Positions 17,942 through 45,206 of a DNA stretch of 64,000 nt are shown piece by piece. The notes beneath the pieces were generated by a model. That model worked only from the letters and a program-made list of their open reading frames with translations. It searched no databases and was not told the DNA's origin. The first letter of the stretch is position 1. Each line of letters opens with the position of its first letter. The stretch is taken from positions 62,001 through 126,000 of the forward strand of contig JBBFKQ010000003.1 of assembly GCA_037481935.1 (NCBI GenBank), given 5' to 3'. The DNA is from Aquificaceae bacterium (lineage in GTDB: Bacteria; Aquificota; Aquificia; Aquificales; Aquificaceae). A program made the position numbers and the translations under genes.

Positions 17942-18935
17942 ATGGACTTACGAAAGAGCAGGAGTGAGCATAGAAAGGGCTGAAGCCTTTGTGGACTACA
18001 TAAGGGAAAAGGTAAAGACCTTACCAAAAAAAGCTCTCCTCTTTGGATCCTTTGCCAGCGGGCTCAGGCTTGAGGGATACAAGAAGCCGGTTCTTATGCT
18101 TACAACAGACGGGGTTGGAACAAAGCTTAAGGTGGCTCAGGCTGTGGGTGTTCATAACACAGTGGGCATAGACCTGGTTGCCATGAATGTAAACGACCTC
18201 CTCACCACAGGTGCGGAACCTCTCGCCTTTCTTGATTACATAGCCACAGGCAGGATAGAACTTCAGGTTATGAAGGAGCTTATGGATGGTATAGTGGAGG
18301 GGTGCAGGCTTGCAGAGGTTGCCCTCGTGGGTGGAGAAACGGCTGAGATGCCAGACTTTTATCCCGAGGGTGTATATGACCTTGCAGGCTTCTGCGTGGG
18401 CGTGTGCGAGGAGGAGGAGCTTATTACCGGTGAGCGTATAAGACCCGGAGATGTTATACTGGGTTTTCCCTCAAGCGGTTTTCACAGTAATGGATACAGC
18501 CTTATAAGAAAGGTGCTTGAGGCAAAAGGTATAGGCTATGAGGATAAATTTGAGGACAGAAAGTTGTGGGAGATACTCCTTGAACCCACTAAAATATACC
18601 TGCAGGAGGTGCGTGCTCTGAAATACTGTGGAATAGGTATAAGGGGGATGGCACATATAACGGGCGGTGGCATACCGGGAAACCTTATAAGGATATTGCC
18701 GGAGGGTCTGAGAGCGGTAGTGGAAAAGGGGAAAATACCAGTAAACCCCATCTTTGACTGGATAGGGAGGCTGGGCAACATATCCTCTGAGGAGATGTTC
18801 AGAACCTTTAATATGGGCGTGGGTTTTATGGTAGTTCTTGAAGGAAAAGATTTGGACACAGCTCTGAGAGCTGTCCCTTCTTCCTTTGTATGTGGCTTTA
18901 TTGAGGAGGGTAAAAGGGATGTGGTTATTGTTTAG
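17934..18935 (+). CDS. purM: Phosphoribosylformylglycinamidine cyclo-ligase
   Basis: A 333-residue AIR synthetase. Signature segments are LTTDGVGTKLKVA, GIDLVAMNVNDLLTTGAEPLAFLDYIATG, GGETAEMPDFY and GFPSSGFHSNGYSLIR. It converts FGAM to AIR with ATP, the fifth step of purine synthesis. It is far from purQ and purS, also in this window, so the purine genes are dispersed. It overlaps thpR upstream by 8 bp and bamA downstream by 17 bp. The length is normal. Confidence 0.96.
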   Translation: MGEWTYERAGVSIERAEAFVDYIREKVKTLPKKALLFGSFASGLRLEGYKKPVLMLTTDGVGTKLKVAQAVGVHNTVGIDLVAMNVNDLLTTGAEPLAFLDYIATGRIELQVMKELMDGIVEGCRLAEVALVGGETAEMPDFYPEGVYDLAGFCVGVCEEEELITGERIRPGDVILGFPSSGFHSNGYSLIRKVLEAKGIGYEDKFEDRKLWEILLEPTKIYLQEVRALKYCGIGIRGMAHITGGGIPGNLIRILPEGLRAVVEKGKIPVNPIFDWIGRLGNISSEEMFRTFNMGVGFMVVLEGKDLDTALRAVPSSFVCGFIEEGKRDVVIV

Positions 18936-21252
18936 AGTCTTATTGCCAGTTTTTCTCTTGCTGGGTCTTTCCTTCGCACAGGTGGTGAAAGAGATAAGGG
19001 TTGAAGGAGCCAGGTATGTGCCAGAGGATGTAATAATAGGTCTCATAAACATAAGACAGGGAAGCCTATACATCCCCGATATGGTCCGTGAGAGCATAAG
19101 ACGCGTGTTCAGAACAGGCTTTTTTGACGAGGTGGAGGTCTATGAAGAAAGGGTGGGTGAGGATGTGGTGCTCACATACAGAGTTAAGGACCTTCCTGTT
19201 ATATACAGAATAGAGTTTGTGGGCAACAGGAAGATAAAGTCCGACGAGCTTGAGAAAAAGATAGGAATAGAAACGGAGGTGGGCAAGATTGAGCCAGAAG
19301 AGTTTATAAAGGGCTTTACCTCAGCGCCGGCTGTAGAAGAAAGACTGGAAATACAGAGAAGGCTGAGGCTCGGAAGGGTTCTCACCCGTGAAGAGCTCGA
19401 GTTCATAAAGAGAAAAATAGTGGAAGCATACACGAAGGAGGGCTACACAAACGTTCAGGTAGATTACGAACTTGTGCCCAGGAAGGGTGCTTCAAAGGTT
19501 GTTTACAGAATAGTGGAGGGAGAGCCAGAGTATGTAAGAAGTATAAACTTTACAGGGAACAGGACCTTCAGCAGAGGTAGACTGCTCGGGCTTATGGAGA
19601 CAAAACCTGTGAGCCTTCTTGCCTTCAGGCTAAAGCCCCCCTTCAGTGAGGATGTTCTGAGGGAAGACGTGAGAAAGATAAGAGACTTTTACCGTTCTGA
19701 GGGCTTTCTTGAGGCTAAGGTTGACTACTCTGTAAAGAAGGAGGGAAACAGATACGAGATAAACATAAAGATTGAAGAGGGACCAAGATACAGGTTATCG
19801 GAGCTGAAAATAGAGGGCAACAGCCTCTTTGCCTACTCAGAGCTCGTCGGGGACATACTCAAAAAGAACAGGGGAGGATACTACAGAAGGGAAATTCTTG
19901 ACAGGATAAAGGAGAACATAAGGAGGAGATACTCGGAGATTGGCTATCTGGGCGTTTTCGTAGAGGAAAGAGAGAGTGTGGACAGAGAGGGTAAAAGGGT
20001 AAGCGTAAACCTCCAGCTGCAGGAGGGTGAGCCTGTTTATGTTAGCAGGATTGAAGTGCAGGGCAATTACGAATCAAGGGACTATGTGATAAGAAGGGAG
20101 CTAAGATTTCAGGAGGGTGAGCTGGCAAACCAGAGGGAGATAGACAGGTCAAGGACAAGGGTTTTTAATCTTGGCTACTATCAGGATGTTTCTATAGACC
20201 CCTTTCCTACAGAGGGCAAAAACTGGGATTTTGTGGCAAAGGTAAGGGAAAGGTTTACAGGGCAGTTTTCCATAGGCCTTGGATACAATCAGGTGACAGG
20301 CGTTTCCGGCTTCATATCCCTCCGTAAGGGTAACTTTCGCGGGACAGGAGACATAGCGGGTATTTCCATATCTTACGGAAGCAAATATAAGGATAATTCC
20401 CTTTCCTACACTAAGAAGTGGTTTCTAAACCAGCCCATAGACCTCACGGGTTCAGTTTATGACAGAAGGATAGAATACACCACCTACACGGTAGACAGAA
20501 CGGGTATAGACCTCATATTCTCAAGGGAGTTTGCAGAGTTCTGGAAGGCAAGCGCAGGGGTAAGTCTTCAGAGGGTAAGGTATACAAACATATCACCCGA
20601 TGCCTCACCCCTCATCAAAGAAGAAGCCGGAACCAGACAGTCAAGAAAACTGCTCTTTGGTCTGACAAGGGATACGAGGGACAATTACCTCTTTCCATCC
20701 GCGGGTGCCCTTACAGAGCTGGGCTATTCAGTGGCTGTGCCAGTGCTCGGGGGTAATGAGAGGTTCAACAAGATAACCCTTTCCCACCAGCAGTTTTTCA
20801 AGGATAGATGGCTGGACACAGGTCTCATACTCTCCTTTAAGGGCTCTCTTGGACTGGTTGAACCCTACAGTGGCAAAAGAGTGCCCCTTGATGAAAGGTT
20901 TTTTGTAGGCGGAGACTTCACCGTAAGGGGCTACAAATACGGCTACGCAGGACCCCTTGACCCCAATACAAAGGACCCTATAGGAGCAAAAAGACAGCTA
21001 ATCTTATCAGCGGAGGCAAACTACCCCCTCTACAAGAACATACTCTACGGTGCAGTTTTCTACGATACAGGTCTTGGCTTTAACGACTGGAGCGAGCTAA
21101 AAACTCAAAACCTTAAGGGTGGCTTTGGCATAGGTATAAGGTTCATAACCCCCTTCGCACCCATAAAGTTAGACTGGGCTGTCAAAACGAAAAAAGTGCC
21201 CGGCGACACCTCAAGAAGCAGGATACATTTTGTTCTTGGAGTGTTTTTCTGA
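18919..21252 (+). CDS. bamA: Outer-membrane protein assembly factor BamA
   Basis: A 777-residue Omp85 protein. A signal peptide (MWLLFRVLLPVFLLLGLSFA) is followed by five POTRA-like repeats, each with an xxIxGNRxxxxxxL-type strand (VEGARYVPEDVI, FVGNRKIKSDEL, FTGNRTFSRGRL, IEGNSLFAYSEL, VQGNYESRDYVI), then a 16-strand barrel with VRGYKYGYAGP (the lid-loop VRGF/Y motif) and a C-terminal phenylalanine. The second POTRA region carries an insertion (about residues 112-150, EERLEIQRRLRLGRV). The start at 18919 is preferred over one 33 nt upstream because GAGGAGGG lies just before it. It inserts beta-barrel proteins in the outer membrane and shows that the cell is diderm. Confidence 0.94.
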   Translation: MWLLFRVLLPVFLLLGLSFAQVVKEIRVEGARYVPEDVIIGLINIRQGSLYIPDMVRESIRRVFRTGFFDEVEVYEERVGEDVVLTYRVKDLPVIYRIEFVGNRKIKSDELEKKIGIETEVGKIEPEEFIKGFTSAPAVEERLEIQRRLRLGRVLTREELEFIKRKIVEAYTKEGYTNVQVDYELVPRKGASKVVYRIVEGEPEYVRSINFTGNRTFSRGRLLGLMETKPVSLLAFRLKPPFSEDVLREDVRKIRDFYRSEGFLEAKVDYSVKKEGNRYEINIKIEEGPRYRLSELKIEGNSLFAYSELVGDILKKNRGGYYRREILDRIKENIRRRYSEIGYLGVFVEERESVDREGKRVSVNLQLQEGEPVYVSRIEVQGNYESRDYVIRRELRFQEGELANQREIDRSRTRVFNLGYYQDVSIDPFPTEGKNWDFVAKVRERFTGQFSIGLGYNQVTGVSGFISLRKGNFRGTGDIAGISISYGSKYKDNSLSYTKKWFLNQPIDLTGSVYDRRIEYTTYTVDRTGIDLIFSREFAEFWKASAGVSLQRVRYTNISPDASPLIKEEAGTRQSRKLLFGLTRDTRDNYLFPSAGALTELGYSVAVPVLGGNERFNKITLSHQQFFKDRWLDTGLILSFKGSLGLVEPYSGKRVPLDERFFVGGDFTVRGYKYGYAGPLDPNTKDPIGAKRQLILSAEANYPLYKNILYGAVFYDTGLGFNDWSELKTQNLKGGFGIGIRFITPFAPIKLDWAVKTKKVPGDTSRSRIHFVLGVFF

Positions 21253-23686: not shown

Positions 23687-24430
23687 ATGCTAAGAAAGTT
23701 AAGCCTTTTCACATCAGTTTTAGTTGCGGCTTTTGCCCTCGGTGCCTGCGGGCAGGGTTCAGCCAAGTGCCCTACAAAGGAACAGGTGAAAAGCTCAGTA
23801 AAAGAACTTATACCTCAGGACTTTACCGTTGAGTCCGTATCCCAGCTTCAGAACATAAGGGATCTCTGTGAGGTAGTTGTAAAAGTTGGCGCACAGCCCC
23901 TTGTTTTCTACATGGATGGGAAGGGGGAATATCTGCTTGCGGGCAATCTCATAAGTCTTAAGGACAAAAAGAACATAACAAGGGACAGACAGCAGGAATT
24001 TATGAAGGTATCTGCAGAACAGCTAAAGGAGCTTGAAAAACATGTGAATGTAAGGCTCGGAGAGGGGAGCAAGTATGTCTACTTCATAACCGACCCGGAC
24101 TGCCCCTTCTGCAAGAGAAGCAACCCAGTAGTAGAAGAGTGGGCGAAGAAAAACAACGTTCAGGTAAGGCTTATCTTCTTCCCACTTCCCATACATCCAG
24201 AAGCTTTTGGCAAGGCTGTGGCGGTCATATGCGATAAAAAGGGCTTTAAGGAATATGCGGAGGGATACACTTCTCAGAACCAGTGTGAAGAGGGTAAAAA
24301 GGCAGTTCAGTCAAACCTTGAGCTTATGAACAAACTTGGAATAGGTGGAACGCCCACCTTCATAGGTATGAACGGTAAGATGCACTCAGGACTGCCCACA
24401 GAGGAAGACCTAAACAAGCTGGTGAATTAG
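23687..24430 (+). CDS. DsbC/DsbG-like thiol:disulfide isomerase, predicted lipoprotein
   Basis: A 247-residue exported thioredoxin-fold protein. A lipobox (FALGAC, Cys21) suggests outer- or inner-membrane anchoring. The N-terminal region resembles the DsbC dimerisation domain (ESVSQLQNIRDLCEVVV... VFYMDGKGEYLLAGNLI), and the catalytic domain has CPFC at 139-142 and the cis-proline GGTPTFIG. It would isomerise or reduce disulfides in the periplasm. The next gene encodes a secreted protein with many paired cysteines, a plausible client. Lipid anchoring is unusual for DsbC and rests on the lipobox alone. Confidence 0.85.
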   Translation: MLRKLSLFTSVLVAAFALGACGQGSAKCPTKEQVKSSVKELIPQDFTVESVSQLQNIRDLCEVVVKVGAQPLVFYMDGKGEYLLAGNLISLKDKKNITRDRQQEFMKVSAEQLKELEKHVNVRLGEGSKYVYFITDPDCPFCKRSNPVVEEWAKKNNVQVRLIFFPLPIHPEAFGKAVAVICDKKGFKEYAEGYTSQNQCEEGKKAVQSNLELMNKLGIGGTPTFIGMNGKMHSGLPTEEDLNKLVN

Positions 24431-24499: not shown

Positions 24500-27106
24500 A
24501 TGGCTGTCTTAGCCATCATATTAGTATCTCTTTCCTTGTTGTTTGCAAGAACCTATGGGCAGGAAGGCGGGCCTATACCACAAAAGGAAGGAGGCGGTGT
24601 TAAGGTGGGTCCTTCCATAATAATCCCTTTCATGCTGATACCAGCTATCATAAAAAAGCTCACTGAAAAAGGTGAGCTTCCTACATATCCCGTCCTTGAC
24701 AAAAAGCCACTAAACATATCTCAGAGCGGAAATACCTATACGGTGGACTGGGTCATTTACTATGCAAACAATACCAATAGCACACAGAATGGTATTACAA
24801 TAACAGAAGGTCCATTAAACACCATAGTGCCAGGCTCCCTTCAACAGCCTTCTGGCTGGTCTGGTTCCTTGAACTCTACAAATACGGTGGCAACATGGAC
24901 AGGTAATGCGCCCCCAGTGAACGGCTACATGAGTGCAAACGTCAACACAGGCATGGCTTCCTCTTTCAATGTAACAGGTGGGGGAGATGGCTACAGAGCT
25001 TTCCCCTACAGGCATATGGCTTCGGGTGGAAAGCTAAGAATATACTTCATTAATCATCATGAGCCCATGTTCAACAATACAAGCACAGGACAGATTTTTA
25101 AATGCGTAGACACTTTAACCGGTAATTACTGTTCTGGGTTTCCTAAAAACCTCCCAAAGGGTGATGGCTCTGGAAAGTTCTCCTCATCGGGTATGTATGA
25201 TGAAGAGTATTACATTGATAGTTCAGGCAGACTTTATTATGCGGTTACCGCCAATGATAAGGAATTTGGTCTTGGATGTTACAATCTTGAAACAGACACA
25301 GAGTGTGGTTTTTACAAGCTTGGTGTTAACCCAACCAAGACATGGTCTTACGTAAAGGGTCCGTGGAAGGTGGGAAATGAGTTATACATGGTAGGTGGTG
25401 ACAGGAAGCTTTACTGCCTTGATGCCACTAACCCTGCAAACTTCTGCATGGGATTAAGTGGTTATTACACAGGCTTTAGCTTTCCAGCCGGTGCTTTTCT
25501 TGACCCTAATACGGCAGGCACAACAATGTCACCAAACATGAGCTTTGGTCCCGGTGTATTTGGAGAAGTTGTTGGTAGCAGGATTTATTTTATTACCGAC
25601 AGCCACGCAAATGCAATACCAAAAACATTGAGGTCTTTTTGCTTTGATACTGTTACAAAATCACCCTGCGCTGGCTGGACAGTATCCTCACAGACTCATG
25701 GCACCCCAATGACATATCCGAGGGTATGGTCTTCCTTTATATACTACAACAATGCAATGAACCCAGTGCACATCTGCGCAAGGCTCAACGGTCTTTCCCA
25801 GTACTGCTTCAGCCTATCCAGCGGTCTTCCTTCATCACCGCCGGTAGTTTTCTCTGGGCTGTCTCTAAACACTGGTTTCGGCTCAGAGATTACAATGGGT
25901 TCAAGGAGCTATTTTCCAGATTTCATGTATCAAGCAATGAGCTCTAACCCTGGTAGAGTTCTGTGCTGGGACTGGTCAACGGGCGCGCCCTGTGCTCCCA
26001 CCTGGGAATACAAAAGCTGGACACATCCTACAAAGGGTAATCCGAGAGACTACACAGTTAACGTGGACGATAAAGGGTGTATATGGGTGGTTGGTGATAA
26101 TGCTCCTGCCATGTGGTATTTTGACCCAGCAAAACCACCTGACAGGAACGGTCATGCAGGTAAATGCGAATCAAGAGAGGGAAAGTTTGAACAAACCTTT
26201 CAGCCATGGCAATACTGCTCTGGACCAAAGCCCTTCTTATGGCTCAGGGTAGACGTAGCCAATGCCAGTCTTTCCGACTTCAGTAAACTTGAGATTAGAA
26301 TTAAGGACAGCTCTAACAACACTATTTTTGTATACGACTGCCTAACAAACAGCAGCCTTTCTGCAAACCTCTCAGGTATATCAGCTCAGACCAGTGGACA
26401 GCCGCTGAATGTAGAAGTGTTTTATGCTCTATCCTCTGGCGTTAATCTTCAAAGCTTTGAAATAAGAGCTTATTATCATGCATCACCTCTGGAGTTCTGT
26501 CTTAAAAGTAGACATGATTGTCTCCAAGATGCTATAAAGAACCCTGTAAACGTGTCAGGGCAACAGGTAAGCCTGCAACCGAAGGTAGAGGTGGAACTTA
26601 CCAAGCCAGAGGAGTGTCCTGTACTGGGAGAGGGTGCTGGAAGTAATGGGCCTGGTGGTGGAACTGGCGGAAGCGGTCCTTCCAGTGGTGCAGGAGGAAC
26701 AGTTGGTCAGACAGGAGGAGGTTCGGGCAGTTCCAGCACAGGGGCAGGACCCGGAATACTTCTTACCCCATCACCTCTTCCTTCAACAGGCAGTTCTGGA
26801 GCCAGTGGAGCAATTGTGCATCCTCCAACTGCTGGCGGCGCTCAAGTAGTAGAAAAAGATGGTCAGCTTCAAATCCTTCCCGAAGCAAAACAGAGATGTT
26901 ACTGGAGACCAAAGCAGAAACATTTAGAGGCAACTCAAAAGCCTCCAACAAAACCCGCAGTTTCAAAAAAGGCCTCTGTTCAGGCACAGAAGCCCAAGAA
27001 GGATGCAGGCAAACCAGTGGCACAGAAGCCAAAGAAAAAGCCAGCAAAGGCAAAAGTGGCCACACCTCAACAGGATATGGAGTATGTGTGTGAACCGGAA
27101 AAGTAA
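24500..27106 (+). CDS. Large secreted protein of unknown function with repeated Cys-pair modules
   Basis: An 868-residue protein that I do not recognise. It has a signal peptide (MAVLAIILVSLSLLFARTYG), a second hydrophobic stretch (SIIIPFMLIPAI) and an N-terminal Asn/Thr-rich beta region resembling DUF11-like adhesin repeats. From residue 202 six modules carry a cysteine pair spaced 9-10 residues: C202/C211, C260/C269, C306/C316, C381/C390, C426/C436, C489/C498, with a loose C-x-D-x-x-T-x-x-x-C-x-G pattern and strands between, suggestive of a disulfide-pinned beta-propeller. A Gly/Ser-rich linker (about 712-760) precedes a Lys/Pro/Ala-rich basic tail ending VCEPEK. GGAGG precedes the ATG. It appears more AT-rich with different codon choice, hinting at transfer. 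Surface or adhesion function is only a guess. Confidence 0.7.
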   Translation: MAVLAIILVSLSLLFARTYGQEGGPIPQKEGGGVKVGPSIIIPFMLIPAIIKKLTEKGELPTYPVLDKKPLNISQSGNTYTVDWVIYYANNTNSTQNGITITEGPLNTIVPGSLQQPSGWSGSLNSTNTVATWTGNAPPVNGYMSANVNTGMASSFNVTGGGDGYRAFPYRHMASGGKLRIYFINHHEPMFNNTSTGQIFKCVDTLTGNYCSGFPKNLPKGDGSGKFSSSGMYDEEYYIDSSGRLYYAVTANDKEFGLGCYNLETDTECGFYKLGVNPTKTWSYVKGPWKVGNELYMVGGDRKLYCLDATNPANFCMGLSGYYTGFSFPAGAFLDPNTAGTTMSPNMSFGPGVFGEVVGSRIYFITDSHANAIPKTLRSFCFDTVTKSPCAGWTVSSQTHGTPMTYPRVWSSFIYYNNAMNPVHICARLNGLSQYCFSLSSGLPSSPPVVFSGLSLNTGFGSEITMGSRSYFPDFMYQAMSSNPGRVLCWDWSTGAPCAPTWEYKSWTHPTKGNPRDYTVNVDDKGCIWVVGDNAPAMWYFDPAKPPDRNGHAGKCESREGKFEQTFQPWQYCSGPKPFLWLRVDVANASLSDFSKLEIRIKDSSNNTIFVYDCLTNSSLSANLSGISAQTSGQPLNVEVFYALSSGVNLQSFEIRAYYHASPLEFCLKSRHDCLQDAIKNPVNVSGQQVSLQPKVEVELTKPEECPVLGEGAGSNGPGGGTGGSGPSSGAGGTVGQTGGGSGSSSTGAGPGILLTPSPLPSTGSSGASGAIVHPPTAGGAQVVEKDGQLQILPEAKQRCYWRPKQKHLEATQKPPTKPAVSKKASVQAQKPKKDAGKPVAQKPKKKPAKAKVATPQQDMEYVCEPEK

Positions 27107-27154: not shown

Positions 27155-28270
27155 ATGGACTGGGTAAGGCGGGAACTCAGCAGGATAAAGGAAGAGAAGC
27201 TCTTCAGATATAGGTTTCTGAAGGAGGGTCTTATAGACTTCTGTTCCAACGACTATCTCGCACTGAAAGACCATCCGGAGGTGGTTGAAGAGGCGATAAA
27301 GGTTCTGAAAGAGTATGGTCTTGGTTCTGGAGCATCTGCACTCGTATCTGGCTATACAAAACATCACAGGGAGCTGGAGGAGAAGCTGGCGGAGTTCAAG
27401 GGAACACCGTGCTGTGTGCTTTTTGGCTCAGGATACCTTGCCAACTTAGGCACTATTCCGTCCCTTGCAGGTGAAGGAGACCTTATACTGAGCGATGAGC
27501 TAAACCATGCCAGCATAATAGACGCCTGCAGGCTTTCAAAGGCTAAGGTATCTGTGTTCCGTCACAGGGACTACGGGCATCTTGGGGAGCTTCTCGCAGA
27601 GCTCAGAAAAAGTCATAGAAGATGTATTATAGTGACGGACACGGTTTTCAGCATGGACGGAGATGTTGCGGACATTAGAGAGCTCAAAAGACTTTCGGAG
27701 AGCTTTGACTGTATGCTTTATCTTGACGAAGCCCATGCGACAGGCGTGCTTGGTGCCACTGGGAGGGGTGGACTTGAAGAATACGGGGAGAAGTGGGAAG
27801 AATACATGGTAATCATGGGAACTCTCTCAAAGGCGATAGGTTCTTATGGAGCCTTTGTGTGCGGTTCTGTAGTGCTGTGTGAGTATCTTGTAAACAGGGC
27901 GAGGAGTCTTATATTTTCCACATCCCTGCCCCCAGCGGTATGTGCAGGTGCGGGCAAAGCTCTTGAAATAATCCAGAGAGAACCATGGAGGGTAGAGAGG
28001 CTAAAGGAATTAAGCAGAAGAATCTACTTCAGGCTCTCTTCTTTGGGCTTTGAAGTGCCATTTTATGGAACCCCTATCCTACCCATAATGGTGTATGAAG
28101 AGGGTAAGGCACTCAGCCTGAGGGACAGACTACTTGAACATGGGATACTTATTCAGGCCATAAGGTATCCAACAGTTCCGAGGGGAAAGGCGAGACTAAG
28201 GCTTACTACAAGCCTCAGATACACAGAAGAAGACCTTGAAAGACTTTTCAGAGCTTTTGAAAGCCTTTAA
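27155..28270 (+). CDS. bioF: 8-amino-7-oxononanoate synthase (AONS) family PLP enzyme
   Basis: A 371-residue alpha-oxoamine synthase. It shows FCSNDYLAL, GSGASALVSGYTKHHRELEE, DELNHASIIDACRLS, YLDEAHATGVLG and the PLP lysine in GTLSKAIGSYG (Lys226). It condenses pimeloyl-ACP/CoA with alanine in biotin synthesis. A 2-amino-3-ketobutyrate CoA ligase is a close relative and cannot be wholly excluded. No other bio genes are nearby. There is no clear Shine-Dalgarno sequence. The gene converges on flgE across a G/C-skewed 43-bp gap. Confidence 0.88.
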   Translation: MDWVRRELSRIKEEKLFRYRFLKEGLIDFCSNDYLALKDHPEVVEEAIKVLKEYGLGSGASALVSGYTKHHRELEEKLAEFKGTPCCVLFGSGYLANLGTIPSLAGEGDLILSDELNHASIIDACRLSKAKVSVFRHRDYGHLGELLAELRKSHRRCIIVTDTVFSMDGDVADIRELKRLSESFDCMLYLDEAHATGVLGATGRGGLEEYGEKWEEYMVIMGTLSKAIGSYGAFVCGSVVLCEYLVNRARSLIFSTSLPPAVCAGAGKALEIIQREPWRVERLKELSRRIYFRLSSLGFEVPFYGTPILPIMVYEEGKALSLRDRLLEHGILIQAIRYPTVPRGKARLRLTTSLRYTEEDLERLFRAFESL

Positions 28271-30705: not shown

Positions 30706-32286
30706 ATGAGCCTTCAGCCCACAGGAATACCTCTTACGGTAAAGGAATTTGACAGACAGAAGGTAGGCTTCTGTGCAGGCTGTGGATGCGGCTGCGGATA
30801 CATACTTTACGAAAGAGAAGGCAAAATCGTAGACCTTTACGGCCACCCAGCAGACCCGAGAGGAATGGGAAGTCTCTGCACCAAGGGAATAACATACATA
30901 CAGGAAATACCCGGCAATCAAATGAGGTTAAGGGGGATATTCATGAAAAAAGAGGAGGAGTTTACCCCTATTGAATATACCCAGGCTCTTGAAATTCTCA
31001 AAGAAAAACTTCTGAAAGGTAAAACTGCCTTTCTGCTTGGAAGGCAGACAGGGCTTGAGGAATATATTCTGGCAAAGAAAGTTTCAGAAGATGTTTTTGT
31101 TGATGCACCTGTTGTGGACTTTATGCCTTCCACTCTTGAGCCCACCCAGTGGAAGAAGGTAAGGTTCATACTATCTGTTGACGCTGAGCCAGTTTTCTCA
31201 GAAGTGATGGCAACGCGCTGGCTTGTGGATGCTGTGGAGGGTGGAGCATACATTTTCTGCCTCTCCAGCAGATATGAAACCCTGTGCGCAAAGGCAAGGG
31301 AAAGGCTCCTTGTGAAGCCAGATATTATGATGCAGTTCCTGCAGTCCCTTCTCAGTCCAGAGAAGGGTGATGAGAAAGTGGAATTTGTGAAAAAAAGCCT
31401 GTTTCTTATGAGGGGTTCTCTGGTTCTTGTAGGGGCACATCTTCTCAATTCTCCCTTCAGAAAAGTTCTTCTTAACTTACTTTCAGGGCTTAGACGCAAG
31501 TTTGGCGTGCATTACAGCTTTGTGGGAGATGTGATGCCCTTCCCGGCAAAATCCCTTGAGGAGTTTTTTGAAAGGTTTGAAGAATTTGAAAACCTGCTTG
31601 TGATAGGAAATCTCTTCAGATACTTAAAGGAAGAGCATCTGAAGGCACTTCATAAGAAGTTTGTGGTAAGCTTCCAGGTTTTTCCCAACATAACAGCTAA
31701 CTACTCAGACCTGCTCTTTGCAATGAAGCTCTTTCATGAGAGAGAATTTGTAAACTACAGGCATGGCTTTGGATACCTTGTATATTCGCCCAGGACACTC
31801 CAGCAGGAAGGGGTTTACGCCCCCTACAGTGTGCTTGAAGATATTTTTGAAACAGGCGTAAGCCCTGAAAACTTCCTCAGAGAATACGGCGTTGATTACC
31901 AAAAACTCATGGCAGAAGGTGAAGCAGCTCTTAAGATGGAGGAAATAAGCACCATAGAGACCGAAGGTCAACAGATACAGAAGGGAGATGTTTTCCTCTA
32001 CACGGACAGCACCCTTGTGGAAGACATGGGGCACTGGAATCCATGGACTCATGAGATGGAAAGGCTCCAGAGGGCTTATGTAAACCCCCATACGGCAAAA
32101 AGGCTGGGTGTGCGCGAAAACATAGAGATTGGGGGTGTCAGCTTTGAACTACTAACTACAGAAAACGTGGCAGAGGGCGTGATTTTTGTCCCTTCTGAAT
32201 ATGAGGAGTTTCAGCCCTTTGACCCGGGTCACAGGGTGGGGGCCTTTTTGAAAAGACCCTTCTACAGGTATGAGGTCCTCCCATGA
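30706..32286 (+). CDS. Short molybdopterin-oxidoreductase-like [4Fe-4S] protein
   Basis: A 526-residue protein with a MopB Fe4S4 domain: Cys23, Cys26, Cys30 and Cys58 (CAGCGCGC ... GSLCTKG) with an extra Cys28. The middle region has a Rossmann-like form (EPTQWKKVRFILSVDAEP; LLVIGNLFRYL), and the C terminus resembles a molybdopterin-dinucleotide-binding barrel (YVNPHTAKRLGVRENIEIGG, VFVPSEYEEFQPF). It is well short of formate dehydrogenase or nitrate reductase (about 700-1000 residues) and closer in size to formylmethanofuran dehydrogenase subunit B-like proteins. No partner subunits or export signal are seen, so it should be cytoplasmic. Substrate unknown. It overlaps the next gene by 4 bp (ATGA). 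Confidence 0.72.
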   Translation: MSLQPTGIPLTVKEFDRQKVGFCAGCGCGCGYILYEREGKIVDLYGHPADPRGMGSLCTKGITYIQEIPGNQMRLRGIFMKKEEEFTPIEYTQALEILKEKLLKGKTAFLLGRQTGLEEYILAKKVSEDVFVDAPVVDFMPSTLEPTQWKKVRFILSVDAEPVFSEVMATRWLVDAVEGGAYIFCLSSRYETLCAKARERLLVKPDIMMQFLQSLLSPEKGDEKVEFVKKSLFLMRGSLVLVGAHLLNSPFRKVLLNLLSGLRRKFGVHYSFVGDVMPFPAKSLEEFFERFEEFENLLVIGNLFRYLKEEHLKALHKKFVVSFQVFPNITANYSDLLFAMKLFHEREFVNYRHGFGYLVYSPRTLQQEGVYAPYSVLEDIFETGVSPENFLREYGVDYQKLMAEGEAALKMEEISTIETEGQQIQKGDVFLYTDSTLVEDMGHWNPWTHEMERLQRAYVNPHTAKRLGVRENIEIGGVSFELLTTENVAEGVIFVPSEYEEFQPFDPGHRVGAFLKRPFYRYEVLP

Positions 32287-43326: not shown

Positions 43327-45206
43327 ATGAGGGCGTATTATCATGGCAGGATTGAAGATTTTACAAAGAGTTTTGGCAACGCCCAAGATTTCAGAGCATT
43401 CATAAGCCGACAGCATAGGATGTTTCATGGTGAGGATGCAAGCATAGAACAACTCAATGCCTAGGAAGAGTCATTTTCACACATTTATAAACTTTTTGAG
43501 CGGCTCATAAACAAAGGCCTTGCCAACCTTTACTGTATTTTTGAATACTTTTTGCCAACCTCTCAGGAAAGAATCGACCTCATAATTCTTGGGAAAAGTG
43601 AGAGCAAAGCCAAAGCACTGATCCTTGAACTCAAGGGCTGGGGTACTACCGGTCTTAAATCAGGTAAGTGGACTGTGAAAGTAGACAAGGAAGAGGGATA
43701 TGACCCTCACTTGCAGCTTCAAAGCTATGTGGAAAAGTTACGTTTTTTTCACTCTGCTTCTCAAGCCTTTGACTTTGACGGGCTTCTCTGGTTTTATGGA
43801 GTAGAGCCTGCCGCCCAAGAATCTGAATACACATTTGTCGGCCCCTGCTACAATCTACTTTCTAACAGGGTAGCATCTCTCCTACATTCGGCGCTGGATG
43901 AAGGGGGTATAAGGGCTTTTCTCTGTGGCGAATACGTTCAGTCCAGCAGTCTTTTCAGCTTCGTGAAAGAAAGGGGTAAAGATATCTTACAGAGAGGCCT
44001 TGACGTGCTTGTGGAAACCGCCTTTTCTCCGAGTGAGGAACAGGCAAAACTTATTGAAAGGGTTATAAGGGCAATGGAAAGGGGTGAAAGGGTAAACTTT
44101 CTGGTAAAGGGTGGGCCTGGGTCCGGTAAGACATATCTGGCCCTTATTTTGATGATTGAAGCTGTAAGAAGAGGATACAGAACTGTTATAGCATACAGAA
44201 ACAACAGATTCGTGAATTCTCTAAGAAAGCTTCTGGATAGCGTGGAAAGGGGTCTGTCAGGGCTGGTAAAGTTTTATTCTACGGGTAGGAGGGATGGAAT
44301 CGCTGAGCAGTATGGAAACTGCAACTTTGAGTTTGTGATATACGATGAGGCTCAAAGGATGAGGAGGGAAAACATAAGAATTGCAATGCAGAAAGGGAAG
44401 ATTAACCTCTTTTTTTACGACGACTCTCAAATTCTTAATGCAGATGAAGAGGGGTGGAGGGAGAATTTTCTTGAAGAAGCAAGGCTAAGTAGTCTGAAAG
44501 TTGAGGAGTTCCAGCTGGAGGGTAGCTACAGAGTAAGGGGAGGACATGTCTATACAAGCTTTGTGGAGGGCCTGTTGGAAAGTGACCTCCATATAGACCC
44601 AAGAAGCCTTGGAGACTACGAGTTAAAACTATTTGAAAGAATAGAGGAAATGCTGAGTCTTCTGAGAAAAAAGGCCTGTGAAGGCTACAGAGTTGCACTC
44701 ATCGCCGCCTTTACGGAATCACCGGGGGACAGAAAAAACAAAACAGGAAAACTCTAAAGAACAGAAGAATAGGTTATCCACTCTACAACACAGACTTTGA
44801 ACTCTATAGGAACTGTAATGTAGACATATACTGGTTAATGGACGAAAAAACCCAGTATCCAAAATTCTGGCTTGAAGGACATTCCAACAATCTCACGCAT
44901 TGTGCATCCATATACGGATGTCAGGGCTTTGAGACGGAGTATGCAGGCATCGTATGGGGTAGAGATTTGGTTTGGAGGGACGGTGTATGGAGTCTGGGCG
45001 ACAACTGTGAGGACAGTGTGGCTGGACTAAAGGACCTTTTCTACAGAGGTAAAAGAGGAGACCTGGAGTCAGCAAACCTTGCCATAAAGCTTCTGAAAAA
45101 CCGCTACAGAATACTTCTCACGAGAGGTATAAGGGGAACATACATATTCTGCGAAAACCCAGAAACGGCATCCTACCTGCGAAAACTTTTAGGAGGAGCC
45201 GTCTAA
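43327..45206 (+). pseudogene. DUF2075 (Schlafen-like helicase domain) gene with amber stop and frameshift
   Basis: Read from the ATG at 43327 the frame has an amber codon at 43462-43464 (codon 46) and then continues open to about 44720, where it shifts by one base near runs of G5 (44724-44728) and A6 (44733-44738). The continuation (KNRRIGYPLYNTDFELYRN) runs to 45206. The joined product of about 626 residues is a DUF2075 protein: an N-terminal nuclease-like part (DLIILGKSESKAKALILELKGWG), Walker A GGPGSGKTYLAL, Walker B VIYDEAQRM and the C-terminal NRYRILLTRGIRGTYIFC. Two independent lesions suggest a decaying gene; the TAG probably replaces a tryptophan codon. Relatives are linked to mobile or defence functions. 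It overlaps pepA convergently by 18 bp. Confidence 0.82.

Follow-up and report, generated by a model that had tools for sequence, protein, structure and literature searches.

The 64,000 nucleotides of DNA analysed here (hereafter the window) include an intact open reading frame for a protein of 868 amino acids, which is directly preceded by a Shine-Dalgarno ribosome-binding site (AGGAGGTGGGCTATG) and, according to a genome search, is present in a single copy. The genes run in the order BamA/Omp85, thiD, a ccsA-like gene, shikimate kinase, a DsbC/DsbG-like lipoprotein, the 868-aa gene and bioF, and flagellar hook genes follow downstream of bioF on the opposite strand. The frame encodes a real, conserved and lineage-specific secreted protein of an outer-membrane bacterium and matches no catalogued family; the habitat of the host is probably of the hot-spring type. 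The coordinates of the genes and of the protein regions are listed in Table 1.

Table 1. Positions in the window of the 868-aa gene, its neighbours and the regions of its product
Feature	Position	Strand	Basis or remark
BamA/Omp85	18886-21252		about 3 kb upstream of the 868-aa gene
DsbC/DsbG-type disulfide isomerase lipoprotein	23687-24430	+	DsbC_N and thioredoxin-like domains, CPFC; upstream neighbour
868-aa secreted-protein gene	24500-27106	+	intact frame, ATG at 24500, stop ends at 27106
Signal peptide, residues 1-21	24500-24562	+	hydrophobic peak at residues 1-20; orthologue alignment
Second hydrophobic segment VGPSIIIPFMLIPAIIK, residues 37-53	24608-24658	+	conserved; alignment, hydropathy, model
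N-terminal beta-sandwich-like domain, residues 60-150	24677-24949	+	conserved region; few strands, low pLDDT (low-confidence model)
Predicted seven-bladed beta-propeller, residues 165-557	24992-26170	+	strand pattern, fold matches, invariant Cys
Second beta-sandwich-like domain, residues 560-675	26177-26524	+	strands at 560-661, most pLDDT about 78-94
Gly/Ser-rich linker, residues 707-785	26618-26854	+	variable length among orthologues
C-terminal module: QILPEAKQRCYWRPK, basic Lys/Pro/Ala stretch 807-857, MEYVCEPEK	26879-27103	+	Cys 800 and 864 conserved
bioF (8-amino-7-oxononanoate synthase)	27155-28270	+	downstream neighbour

It was proposed in the first-pass annotation that base composition at the gene differs from that of its neighbours. 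Overall GC is ordinary (0.465), but the proposal holds for third codon positions, where GC3 of 0.413 is the lowest among 39 window genes (mean 0.517, sd 0.035); codon fit is the second lowest of the 39. Orthologue GC3 is likewise the lowest among neighbours in two other genomes (G007 and G012; genome and locus handles are our own), nearly the lowest in G006, where one flagellar gene has an equally low value, and not clearly the lowest in G004 and G009, where it comes close to the neighbours' values or falls a little below them. The worst codon fit in the window belongs to a frame with a Schlafen group 3 helicase domain (PF09848) at 43552-44757 (GC3 0.453). Elsewhere in the window, between flagellar and cinA-like genes, the frame at 30706-32286 encodes a 526-aa protein in which only a weak molybdopterin Fe4S4 domain and, below threshold, a molybdopterin-dinucleotide-binding domain are recognised, and its product is a short or divergent relative of molybdopterin oxidoreductases. 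Between molybdopterin-type and flagellar genes G012 carries a gene of a TnpB-family RNA-guided endonuclease (L012:4475-5755), which is absent there in the window.

Domain layout, cysteine pairs and predicted fold

Every orthologue begins with a Sec signal peptide of the signal peptidase I type, ended in most of them by a small-x-small motif before Gln, and the earlier view of the protein as secreted is thereby borne out; no lipobox cysteine stands at its end in any of the six aligned orthologues. The second hydrophobic segment (consensus VGPxIIIPFxLIPxIIKKL) averages above 2 in hydropathy across 15 residues in each of the six, is too short and too rich in proline for a typical membrane span, and overlaps a helix predicted with low confidence at residues 41-55.

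Six cysteine pairs were confirmed exactly where they had been described, at residues 202/211, 260/269, 306/316, 381/390, 426/436 and 489/498, with a pitch between successive pairs of 58, 46, 75, 45 and 63 residues. When cysteines spaced by 9-10 residues were counted in residues 160-560, which hold 14 cysteines, six pairs were observed against a mean of 0.81 in 100,000 shuffles, none of which exceeded five. All 12 paired cysteines are invariant in the alignment of six orthologues, and conservation in homologues, on which the module proposal depended, was thus found. Of the C-x-D-x-x-T-x-x-x-C-x-G pattern, the part up to the second cysteine fits three pairs (202, 381 and 489) and the trailing x-G two of those, the remaining pairs being degenerate (CYNLETDTECG, CLDATNPANFCMG and CARLNGLSQYCFS). 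Searched as a DNA pattern, C-x-D-x-x-T-x-x-x-C has three matches in the window, where 0.14 would be expected, all of them inside this frame, and neither of two further matches genome-wide falls within a comparable protein. Cysteines 527, 556, 573, 667, 674 and 706 are invariant as well, and Cys 614 is kept in five of the six sequences; 573, 614, 667 and 674 belong to the second beta-sandwich-like domain.

Structure prediction with AlphaFold2 gave a mean pLDDT of 56.8 and a pTM of 0.50 for the full length, and 69.8 and 0.66 for residues 151-710, many blocks in blades 2-6 reaching 80-95; the underlying alignment comprised only six sequences, and domain edges and blade count are uncertain to that extent. 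Four-strand units recur in the model at residues 165-204 (+210), 237-276, 286-327, 353-400, 410-445, 464-505 and 519-557. Seven blades were read from this strand list, the last of them (519-557) with low pLDDT, and both seven- and eight-bladed folds occur among the structural matches. The top matches in the PDB are mostly beta-propellers (E about 1e-8 to 1e-6, best TMt 0.59) of unrelated families, namely BamB, LGI1 EPTP, Lis1, WDR5/WD40, GH43, sialidases and PLL lectins, and those among predicted viral structures include P22 gp10-type and WD40 proteins. These matches are generic (identity 8-14%, rmsd above 6 A), and because the fold is common and identity so low, they identify a fold class and not a family. 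A ring of repeated four-stranded blades, i.e. a beta-propeller, is well supported as a prediction (pTM 0.66 on a shallow alignment). The earlier picture of six modules in an irregular beta-propeller is therefore upheld as to repeating, propeller-like blades, but the units are read as seven, six of them with a cysteine pair, and the modules do not stand alone, beta-sandwich-like domains being predicted both before and after the propeller. In each pair the first cysteine lies in predicted strand three and the second where strand four starts or close by, and each pair would staple the C-D hairpin, formed by the outer strands, of blades 1-6. Blade 7 has no such pair and carries Cys 527 and 556.

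The C-terminal part of the earlier description, a Gly/Ser linker followed by a basic Lys/Pro/Ala tail, was correct as to both stretches, but the basic part is enclosed by the cysteine motifs RCYWRPK and MEYVCEPEK. Glycine and serine make up 39 of the 79 linker residues, among which there is no K or R, while residues 807-857 hold 15 K/R and 2 D/E in 51 residues. The motifs QILPExKxRCYWRPK and MEYxCEPEK are nearly invariant in the orthologues, and the stretch between them varies in sequence and not in character; for this reason it would be a basic loop between two short strands rather than a free tail. In the full-length model strands are predicted at 783-804 and 860-866, and a Cys800-Cys864 disulfide possibly joins them. 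All five uninterrupted copies have both cysteines, and in the interrupted G006 gene both motifs occur on the detached C-terminal piece.

Family searches gave no name to the protein. It has no match in Pfam, NCBIfam or PADLOC, and even at E<=10 no Pfam family was reported for any of the six orthologues, the PQQ-like repeat included; nor was there a Pfam match to WD40, Kelch, NHL, sialidase BNR or GH43 motifs or to the PilY1 propeller domain. PHROGs returned only noise (E 0.087 or worse), and the PDB sequence search picked up nothing beyond noise from the Gly/Ser linker. Viral contigs (searched with the single sequence and with a profile), phages and plasmids yielded no relative, two weak plasmid matches (E 2-8) being rejected as noise. 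Profile matches in another genus of the family (E 0.03-0.6) turned out to be CinA-like proteins where checked (L059, L060). Beyond the phylum, a shallow scan with exact peptide patterns only yielded no relative other than a copy matching the position of the G009 gene, and no paper on this protein was found in the literature. Actinobacterial proteins with cysteine-pair propellers may be similar to it.

Distribution, neighbours and evolution of the gene

Orthologues are present in 6 of the 14 genomes of the genus, that of the window included, and align over the full length with 60-72% identity; in other genera, among the 136 genomes of the phylum that were searched, none was detected by single-sequence or profile searches. 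At least 90% completeness is reached by six of the eight genomes that lack the gene. A pN/pS of about 0.25-0.42 between orthologues, a rough figure as pS is near saturation, indicates purifying selection where the gene is present. The protein tree broadly follows that of four neighbouring proteins (G000 groups with G007; G006 is misplaced) with branches about two- to threefold longer, and the two nearest genomes differ by about 0.4 substitutions per site in this protein and about 0.15 in its neighbours. This describes a gene long resident in the genus, which evolves fast and has been lost repeatedly, and not a newcomer.

Five of the six genomes that have the gene share its site between dsbC and bioF and the gene order around it. 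In the sixth (G007) it is flanked by a PyrK-like gene and a small coiled-coil frame and sits about 0.8 Mb away from dsbC (L009:8653-11277). In G007 and in G013, where the gene is missing from the site, dsbC and bioF abut (L039:8290-8430), and since the closed junction has nearly the same sequence in both, relocation of the gene before its loss in the sister lineage is suggested. In G003 and G008 (L043:8779-12602 and L042:7805-11670) the DsbC-like gene is followed by a gene of a PelB-like outer-membrane protein and further apparent Pel polysaccharide genes on the opposite strand, in place of the 868-aa gene and bioF; co-occurrence of the 868-aa gene with the Pel system (PelB) revealed no association. 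In G006 an insert of about 0.35 kb (L013:9075-9400; G006:C1:413074-413399) splits the Gly/Ser linker of the orthologue, both halves of the gene being otherwise conserved. The two parts of the insert match same-strand sequences about 3 kb apart elsewhere in G006 (1286466-1286503 and 1289413-1289542), and its make-up suggests a mobile-element derivative that has been shortened.

The adjacent DsbC-like lipoprotein had been suggested to form the disulfides of the protein, and it may well act in correcting them. It is, nevertheless, not a dedicated partner but a general housekeeping isomerase, because it is the only DsbC_N protein of the genome and its gene occurs in 11 of the 14 genomes (77-100% identity), some of which lack the 868-aa gene. 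VKOR was ruled out as the disulfide oxidase, being absent from all 14 genomes.

Proposed function and its alternatives

The protein is tentatively regarded, at somewhat short of an even chance, as a secreted, disulfide-stabilised propeller that would serve as a ligand- or partner-binding head at the cell envelope. Sec export would place it outside the cytoplasm, where the cysteine pairs of six blades, by stapling outer strands C and D, would stabilise the fold; the propeller would be the head held on the envelope, and the Gly/Ser linker with the basic module would tether it to an acidic surface, for instance lipopolysaccharide, exopolysaccharide or mineral. Association with a wall, as once suggested, does not fit a host that has an outer membrane, as its BamA/Omp85 indicates. 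A position on the outer surface is suggested by the signal peptide, the linker and the basic module together with the fast evolution and the patchy presence, and the last two (6 of 14 genomes) would suit a surface protein facing variable partners. The same five features are compatible with the periplasm too, and no outer-surface sorting signal was identified in the protein.

A periplasmic location would also suit a scaffold or assembly factor, BamB- or TolB-like, that gathers partners under the outer membrane. Some of the best structural matches are chains of BamB, and the gene lies 3 kb downstream of bamA/Omp85 in a neighbourhood kept in five of the six genomes having it; such a role is nonetheless unlikely, as a gene missing from eight genomes, most of them nearly complete, does not encode a core assembly factor, the lipobox and any BamB or PQQ-repeat Pfam match are lacking, and the G007 copy is far from both dsbC and bamA. 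It is quite unlikely, too, that the propeller frames a secreted enzyme resembling a glycosidase, a lyase or a hydrolase of sulfur compounds. GH43 enzymes, sialidases and tetrathionate hydrolase do appear among the fold matches, and the HH at residues 186-187, which is invariant and lies in blade 1, could be catalytic or metal-binding, but the matches are generic propellers in which no common active-site sequence was identified, and the six orthologues fall in no Pfam family even at E=10.

The low GC3, the patchy presence, the other location in G007 and the lack of relatives outside the genus within the phylum would all suit recent acquisition from a foreign source, the gene having come as cargo of a mobile element or phage and lacking a settled role in the host. 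Synteny already weakens this explanation, the dsbC-bioF site being common to five of six genomes; moreover the protein tree broadly follows the neighbour tree, phages, plasmids and viruses yielded no relative, and GC3 in G004 and G009 is near or only slightly below that of neighbours. Recent acquisition is accordingly judged distinctly improbable; entry of the gene before the genus split is possible.

An extension of the preferred reading, a binding head on a tether, is more doubtful: the protein may represent a new propeller family of thermophiles with nearly every blade closed by a disulfide, carried on a Gly/Ser stalk with a disulfide-closed basic-loop tether of a previously undescribed kind, and acting as a heat-proof surface receptor or adhesin. 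Heat-stable propeller binding proteins would find a natural template in such per-blade disulfides, and the protein would be a tractable surface-protein candidate in its group. As a single-copy and repeatedly lost gene, it also marks differences between species within one genus.

Comparison with known systems

The fold class is common, whereas the predicted per-blade disulfide pattern is without match in any family library searched. BamB, among the top fold matches, is likewise an exported beta-propeller of the diderm envelope; it is, however, an eight-bladed lipoprotein with PQQ-like repeats, whereas the 868-aa protein has neither lipobox nor such a Pfam match and differs further in its blade cysteine pairs, its extra domains and its status as a non-core gene. 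PilY1-type adhesins of the pilus tip are presumably alike in being large exported proteins with a propeller, but here no PilY1 match in Pfam, no von Willebrand domain and no pilus genes beside the gene were seen. The highest TM-score among the listed matches (TMt 0.56-0.59) belongs to LGI1 EPTP, a seven-bladed domain engaged in extracellular protein binding, which is eukaryotic and only about 10% identical to the 868-aa protein; it is not known to have a pattern of one disulfide per blade. The PLL-type lectins of Photorhabdus, also matched by their seven-bladed fold, are binding heads like that proposed here. Their identity is at most 13%, and no sugar-binding motif was identified in the 868-aa protein, which in turn possesses the linker and the basic module that these lectins lack.
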